Shown: positions 1,956 to 3,209 of the stretch, piece after piece
Layout of the letters: each line of letters opens with the position of its first letter
Numbering within the stretch: position 1 is the stretch's first letter
Source of the DNA: Fimbriimonadales bacterium
GTDB taxonomy: Bacteria > Armatimonadota > Fimbriimonadia > Fimbriimonadales > GBS-DC
Assembly (NCBI GenBank): GCA_025998675.1
Contig: AP024673.1
Location: forward strand, 2,178,562-2,242,561
Reading direction: 5' to 3'
DNA: 64,000 bases
Notes under the pieces: model-generated
Databases searched by the model: none
What the model saw: the letters and a program-made list of their open reading frames with translations, nothing else
Told to the model about the DNA's origin: nothing
Position numbers and translations under genes: made by a program

Positions 1956-2050
1956 AGAAACCTCCCTGTTGCGTAGTATACCTGTTGGACGCGCAAACGG
2001 GCGGACAGAGTCATGGTATACTTTGCGTATACTTGAATGGGAGGTTAGTG
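1956..2050. promoter_or_regulatory. Divergent promoter region with tandem TATACT boxes
   Basis: On the minus strand TATACT (1975-1980) drives the exported-protein gene. On the plus strand two TATACT copies stand 11 bases apart (2017-2022 and 2028-2033), each inside a self-complementary GTATAC, followed by the GGGAGG ribosome site for the CARF-RelE gene. The doubled palindromic hexamer could be two alternative -10 elements or a repressor site over the promoter; the sequence alone does not decide. Confidence 0.5.
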
Positions 2051-3100
2051 ATGCGTACCGTGATTACTACAGTTGGCACTTCGCTTTTGAACCACGCGAA
2101 GAATCAGGGGAAAGACCCGCAGGACTATCTGCGCACTGCTGAAAGGGAAGGAACGCTTGATCAGACATCTGCAGAGACGAATTCCCTCGAGCGATTGCTG
2201 CAGAAAGGCGACCGAATCGTGTTCCTTCATTCCGACACAGACGAAGGCGAACAGGCGGCGCGCCTGCTGGCAGACTTTTACCGCGAAAAAGGACACGCAA
2301 CCGAGACTCGAAAGGTGTCTTCGCTGAAGTACGACGAGAAACAGTTCGCCCAGCGTGGACTGCGCGCTTTCGTAACAGAGCTGATTAACCATGTTGAGGC
2401 GGCTCAGAGGGCGCATCAGGAGGTTCTCATCAACGCGACAGGCGGCTTCAAAGCCGAGTTTGCCTACGCCTTGCTGGTAGGGTTGCTGTACAAAGTGCCT
2501 GTGTATTATATTCATGAGAAATTCCGCGAAATCATCTCACTGCCGCCAATTCCCATCGGCTGGAACTTCCAGCTGATTGACGACTACGAGGCGTTCTTCG
2601 AGTGGATTGAGCAAGATCTGCGTACAACTCGAGAGGTGGAGAATTGGCTGTATGGAATGCCAGAGGCTGTGCGACTTCTGCTAACTGACGAGGATGGCTA
2701 CACTGTGCTTTCGCCCGCTGGAGAAGCGTTTTACCGCGCCTATCGGAAGCTGATTGAAGAGGAGCCACGCACGCCCGCATTCCTGCATAAGCAGGCGAAG
2801 AGGGCGCTACTCAGCGCAGACGATGACACACGACAGGAGCTGCACCGAAGAATTAGTCGGCTGCAAAACTCTGAACTTGGACGGCAGAATTCGGAACACA
2901 AGCGCAACAGCGACTGCCTGTTCTACCCAACGGGCAGGTTTCCCTATCGGATAGCCTACTACACGGATGCCAACGGTATCTGGATATGCGCAATCTTCAC
3001 CTCGCACGACAGGTACGAAGCGGCTCTGGAGAAAGGCATCTACAGCAAGGATTATGACAGGGAAGACTTCGAACCATACGAGGGGCTGGCAACACGGTGA
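2051..3100 (+). CDS. CARF-RelE fusion ribonuclease (Cami1-like), orphan
   Basis: A 349-residue protein. Residues 1-165 form a CARF domain of the APE2256/Csm6 type: TTVGTSLL (5-12) is the first ligand-loop motif and NATGGFKAE (128-136) the second; both contact cyclic oligoadenylate in the family. Residues 190-245 are helical linker. Residues about 245-335 look like a RelE-type mRNA interferase, with FPYRIAYYTDANGIWICAIF as the typical RelE strand pair. This is the architecture of Cami1, a CARF-RelE enzyme that cuts ribosome-bound mRNA after type III CRISPR signalling. An ATG 22 codons into a longer reading frame is chosen because GGGAGG sits 7 bases upstream. No cas gene or CRISPR array occurs in the window, so the source of an activator is unknown. 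Base composition looks less GC-rich than the neighbours by eye. Confidence 0.8.
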   Translation: MRTVITTVGTSLLNHAKNQGKDPQDYLRTAEREGTLDQTSAETNSLERLLQKGDRIVFLHSDTDEGEQAARLLADFYREKGHATETRKVSSLKYDEKQFAQRGLRAFVTELINHVEAAQRAHQEVLINATGGFKAEFAYALLVGLLYKVPVYYIHEKFREIISLPPIPIGWNFQLIDDYEAFFEWIEQDLRTTREVENWLYGMPEAVRLLLTDEDGYTVLSPAGEAFYRAYRKLIEEEPRTPAFLHKQAKRALLSADDDTRQELHRRISRLQNSELGRQNSEHKRNSDCLFYPTGRFPYRIAYYTDANGIWICAIFTSHDRYEAALEKGIYSKDYDREDFEPYEGLATR

Positions 3101-3136
3101 TTCGTCTGTCTTATGTGGGGTAAAATTCACTGGCGC

Positions 3137-3208
3137 GCCCCCGTAGCTCAGTGGATAGAGCGCAGGCCTCCGGAGCCTGGTGCGCAGGTTCGATTCCTGC
3201 CGGGGGCG
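3137..3208 (+). tRNA. tRNA-Arg (anticodon CCG)
   Basis: A full cloverleaf can be drawn by hand: acceptor GCCCCCG/CGGGGGC; D stem GCTC/GAGC around AGTGGATA; anticodon stem CAGGC/GCCTG with loop CTCCGGA, so anticodon CCG reading CGG; T stem GCAGG/CCTGC with loop TTCGATT; discriminator G. The CCA end is not encoded. A TAAAAT -10 box at 3121-3126 precedes it. Its 3' end is one base from the stop codon of the opposing oxidoreductase gene. Confidence 0.95.
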
Positions 3209-3209
3209 T

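Follow-up and report, generated by a model that had tools for sequence, protein, structure and literature searches.

The carf-relE gene raises the question of where a CARF-coupled ribonuclease could obtain its activating signal when no type III CRISPR gene lies beside it. The gene sits in what we call the window, the whole 64,000-nucleotide stretch of DNA analyzed here (G000:C1:2178562-2242561), in a genome (G000) assembled as a single contig of 2,987,958 bases. An earlier note on this DNA had called the gene an orphan with no CRISPR locus nearby and had left two options for the signal, a type III locus at another site in the genome or a different defense cyclase. We consider it likely that the gene product is a CARF-RelE ribonuclease of the Cami1 type, acting in trans and taking its signal from a type III-B or type III-D Cas10.

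carf-relE encodes a protein of the Cami1 type

The ORF comprises 349 codons, running from an ATG at 2051 to a TGA that ends at 3100, with GGGAGG shortly upstream of the start (Table 1). Searches for a promoter or terminator consensus gave none; two copies of GTATAC, five bases apart, lie just 5' of it (window 2013-2033) and are possible operator or -10 elements.

Table 1. Features of the carf-relE locus in window coordinates, with residue numbers of the encoded protein
Feature	Position	Strand	Evidence
carf-relE gene, predicted 349-aa CARF-RelE (Cami1-like) ribonuclease	2051..3100	+	PADLOC CARF7--CARF_RelE, E 1e-108; AF2 model closest to Cami1
N-terminal CARF domain, residues about 1-168	2051..2554	+	PF09651, residues 38-167; CARF structures aligned over model residues 1-168
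CARF motif TTVGTSLL, residues 6-13; T7, G9, S11 and L12 invariant	2066..2089	+	33 aligned proteins
CARF motif NATGGFKAE, residues 128-136; K134 aligns with Sis0811 K169	2432..2458	+	Alignment
Mostly helical linker between CARF and RelE, residues about 173-237	2567..2761	+	AF2 secondary structure
C-terminal RelE-like domain, residues about 238-328	2762..3034	+	RelE toxins 3g5o (Z 10.3, residues 238-320) and 3bpq
R300, invariant in 33 aligned proteins; aligns with Arg of Cami1	2948..2950	+	Alignment
H319 (in SHDRY), aligns with Cami1 His (DHDEY), which is Ala in ribosome-bound 8phj	3005..3007	+	Pairwise alignment
Y322, invariant in 33 aligned proteins	3014..3016	+	Alignment
tRNA-Arg(CCG), directly downstream of carf-relE; congener synteny ends at or near it	3136..3209	+	

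The PADLOC profile CARF7--CARF_RelE (PDLC01937) matches residues 2-344 of the product (361 bits), and the Pfam Cas_APE2256 CARF family (PF09651) matches its N-terminal part (E = 4e-34); Pfam, NCBIfam, and PADLOC concur on the CARF domain. Both CARF motifs that the earlier note had read as joined to a C-terminal RelE-like domain in one 349-residue protein are present, and the profile and fold matches bear out the fusion. An AlphaFold2 (AF2) monomer model, run on an alignment of 33 proteins, had a mean pLDDT of 92.6 and a pTM of 0.87. When the proposed comparison with Cami1 was carried out using Foldseek and VIA-align, the best PDB matches of the model were Cami1 entries 8phj and 8phb over the whole chain (Foldseek E = 2e-18, VIA Z = 23.6), covering the apo form as well as the complex with cA4 and the 70S ribosome. 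The whole-chain rmsd was high (11 to 14 Å), suggesting a different interdomain angle. The CARF part of the model alone matches ring nucleases with an rmsd of about 3.3, and residues 238-320 alone match the RelE toxin in 3g5o with an rmsd of 2.2. A CARF fold had been expected in residues 1-165 and a RelE fold in residues 245-335, and known folds of the two kinds aligned over 1-168 and 238-320, respectively.

The residues expected to matter for ligand binding and cleavage point in the same direction. The stretch N128-K134 is invariant across the 33 full-length proteins, and Sis0811 K169, the counterpart of K134, is the mutated position in PDB 7pqa according to the entry title. Comparing 8phj with 8phb over the aligned stretch, the His of DHDEY is replaced by Ala in the ribosome complex 8phj, a change that presumably inactivates Cami1. 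MAFFT alone placed S318 in the column of this His, a one-residue shift from the pairwise alignment with H319, which we attribute to a slightly different loop in the clade of the window protein. With the PADLOC profile, the AF2 fold, and the aligned residues in agreement, the earlier Cami1-like reading is upheld, and assignment of the predicted protein to the Cami1 type is supported.

The window protein shares with Cami1 the CARF-linker-RelE layout and the K, R, H, and Y positions but is only about 21 to 24% identical to it in structural alignments and lacks a stretch of C-terminal residues present in Cami1. It matches PADLOC CARF7--CARF_RelE at full length, with nothing beyond normal divergence. 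It belongs to the same CARF subfamily (APE2256) as the Sulfolobus ring nucleases Sis0811 and SSO1393 (7pq2 and 3qyf) and has the same Lys position, whereas those proteins have no RelE domain. Its RelE fold resembles the RelE toxins 3bpq and 3g5o but is fused to a CARF sensor and has no antitoxin partner. The Cami1 structures are those of Mogila et al. 2023, as cited in PMC11229360; a survey in the latter source counts Cami1 in 135 of 1113 type III loci, and the kind is thus well known. What sets the window protein apart is the free-standing position of its gene outside a type III operon, which departs from the usual, although not defining, layout of Cami1 and other CARF-RelE genes; we regard this as slightly unusual and the novelty as modest.

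Two type III loci are encoded elsewhere in the genome

The description of the gene as an orphan with no CRISPR locus nearby held for the neighborhood, where the 64-kb window and the preceding 14.5 kb (L016) yielded no type III gene, but not for the genome as a whole. The suggested search for Cas10 and Csm/Cmr genes recovered a Cas10 with a III-D gene set as well as Cmr1-6, and the RAMP search placed two type III clusters in the 2.99-Mb genome. Cluster A (about 97.7 to 106.0 kb) holds Csx21, four Cas7/Csm3-like genes, Csx19, Csm2, Csx10, and Cas10 and is type III-D; cluster B (1201.5 to 1207.9 kb) holds Cmr6-5-4-3-2-1, a complete type III-B set in which Cmr2 scores over the curated cut-off. The GGDD cyclase motif is kept in both Cas10 proteins (IGGDDFS and CGGDDVL), which supports the option that a type III locus elsewhere makes the signal. 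A CRISPR array of 26 repeats lies near Cas1, which is at 737.9 kb. Assuming a circular contig, carf-relE is about 0.91 Mb from cluster A and about 0.97 Mb from cluster B.

We hypothesize that the III-B or III-D complex, encoded at a distance, would bind invader RNA, upon which the Cas10 of either complex would make cyclic oligoadenylate, most likely cA4. Binding of this ligand by the CARF domains would switch on the RelE domains, which would then cleave mRNA at the ribosome and arrest translation. We infer the ligand, dimer formation, ribosome dependence, and outcome by analogy with Cami1. The lack of type III genes near carf-relE, the low identity of its product to Cami1, and the missing C-terminal residues count against this reading.

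Relatives co-occur with type III genes

Across the 113 genomes of the class, the family of the window protein occurs in 5 and RAMP genes in 19, with all 5 among the 19. Type III genes are therefore present in 5/5 class genomes with the protein versus 14/108 without it (Fisher p = 8e-5, uncorrected for kinship), and in one of the five carriers, G111, the match covers residues 1-234 only. The converse fails, in that the protein is missing from most type III genomes of the class. A scan of 84,980 species gave the same association, with RAMP genes in 39 of the 40 genomes carrying a relative. The exception, L112 (genome G142), is a full-length relative in a 2.3-Mb metagenome bin, possibly incomplete, that yielded no RAMP gene. 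Relatives are present on plasmids of Allomeiothermus and others, and none was found in viral contigs or phage records.

The association extends to gene neighborhoods. Among 32 full-length relatives (L083-L115, excluding L108), 22 had Cas10 or RAMP genes in the retrieved flanking DNA by a phmmer scan tallied by hand, and in Thermus and Meiothermus the relative's gene comes after the RAMP and Cas10 genes. The tree groups the window protein with L083, L084, and L085 (support 100/99), and these closest relatives come from Armatimonadota-like genomes. No type III genes lie within 10 kb on each side of L083 and L085 or on the contig of L084, which is only 5.5 kb long. L083 and L084 have both neighbors in common, a PEP-CTERM/C39-like protein and a B-family polymerase, and L085 shares the polymerase-side neighbor with them. 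L088 and L092 (G099 and G103, both from the window's genus) make up another detached pair, and together the two groups indicate that detachment also occurs beyond this genome. If linkage is ancestral, detachment arose at least twice, which an unrooted tree cannot prove.

More distant relatives varied in layout. In G111 (L020:175-1485), a more distant CARF relative comes directly after a 436-aa protein that also looks CARF-like. The cyanobacterial relatives L116, L118, L119, L120, and L125 match in the CARF part and linker but have a different C-terminal part, and CRISPR-like repeats lie close to L116 and L119.

Probable acquisition at a tRNA locus and alternative readings

carf-relE lies among genes of metabolism or repair (FAD-binding GlcE-like, ADH, SDR, and RecJ). 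The gene is low in GC (54% versus 64%), and only 0.2% of the window's 1-kb stretches are equally low. Eight congeners share the ADH side, with similarity ending at or near the tRNA, and carf-relE is absent from the tRNA-Arg site of all eight in the DNA examined. The low GC and the synteny break fit gain or rearrangement at the tRNA, and carf-relE was probably acquired horizontally at this locus; no att-like repeat was seen flanking it. Just before the window, L016:14086-14520 is a small HNH endonuclease gene (GC 51%) preceded by a gene for 78 aa.

The same GC and synteny, with the rather long end branch of the window protein in the tree, would also suit a horizontally acquired relic that has decayed or fallen silent and has no present role. 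We think this unlikely: the ORF is intact; T7, G9, S11, K134, R300, H319, and Y322 are retained; and the close relatives L083-L085 have an intact gene, with both neighbors common to L083 and L084. It is quite improbable that the CARF part is mainly a ring nuclease removing cA4 and the RelE part is inactive. In its favor, the CARF part closely resembles Sis0811, in which K169 and S12 were mutated; K134 corresponds to the former by alignment and S11 to the latter by motif position. Conservation of the RelE residues R300, H319, and Y322 argues against an inactive RelE part. Some effectors degrade their own activator too, and ring-nuclease activity would thus be compatible with an active RelE part rather than rule one out. 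We find it hardly credible that the protein is a true orphan answering the cyclic nucleotide of a CBASS enzyme or another non-CRISPR cyclase: its distance from any type III gene and the case of G142 favor this, but that genome is a possibly incomplete bin, 39/40 carriers have type III genes, this genome has two GGDD Cas10s, and the defense-cyclase option gained nothing from a search of G000 for the SMODS (CD-NTase) domain PF18144, one family that does not cover all cyclases, which gave no match at E ≤ 1.

Other CARF modules and implications for effector surveys

Three CARF-family searches, covering few of the CARF families, found no CARF effector beside either type III locus; other effectors, such as membrane or SAVED types, may also be encoded. 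They placed two dispersed CARF modules in the genome, carf-relE and a stand-alone CARF_m1 of 170 aa (G000:C1:2,975,895-2,976,404). The latter gene is overlapped by 4 bases by a 357-aa gene that matches the PIN half of CARF_PIN, and the pair looks like a split CARF-PIN effector. Given this second module, the carf-relE product need not be the main effector of the Cas10s, even if our preferred reading of a Cami1-type ribonuclease acting in trans is correct.

With neither type III locus having an adjacent CARF effector and two CARF modules lying elsewhere, type III loci that appear effector-less may be served in trans, and effector surveys confined to cas10 neighborhoods miss proteins like this one. 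We tentatively raise the possibility, which we hold to be somewhat doubtful, that the Armatimonadota CARF-RelE lineage consists of settled free-standing effectors that serve several type III complexes per cell in trans and are inherited apart from them, with effectors and CRISPR loci exchanged independently. The protein also offers a Cami1 relative for structural work, probably from a heat-loving bacterium of the hot-spring type.

A candidate Can2 effector at 2.8985 Mb (L165:1237-2145) was rejected as a Card1/Can2-like PD-(D/E)XK domain without a recognizable CARF. The CARF_m1 and PIN pair (L148:9896-11475; G000:C1:2975895-2977474) is far from both type III loci and directly follows a gene resembling a ribonucleotide reductase small subunit.
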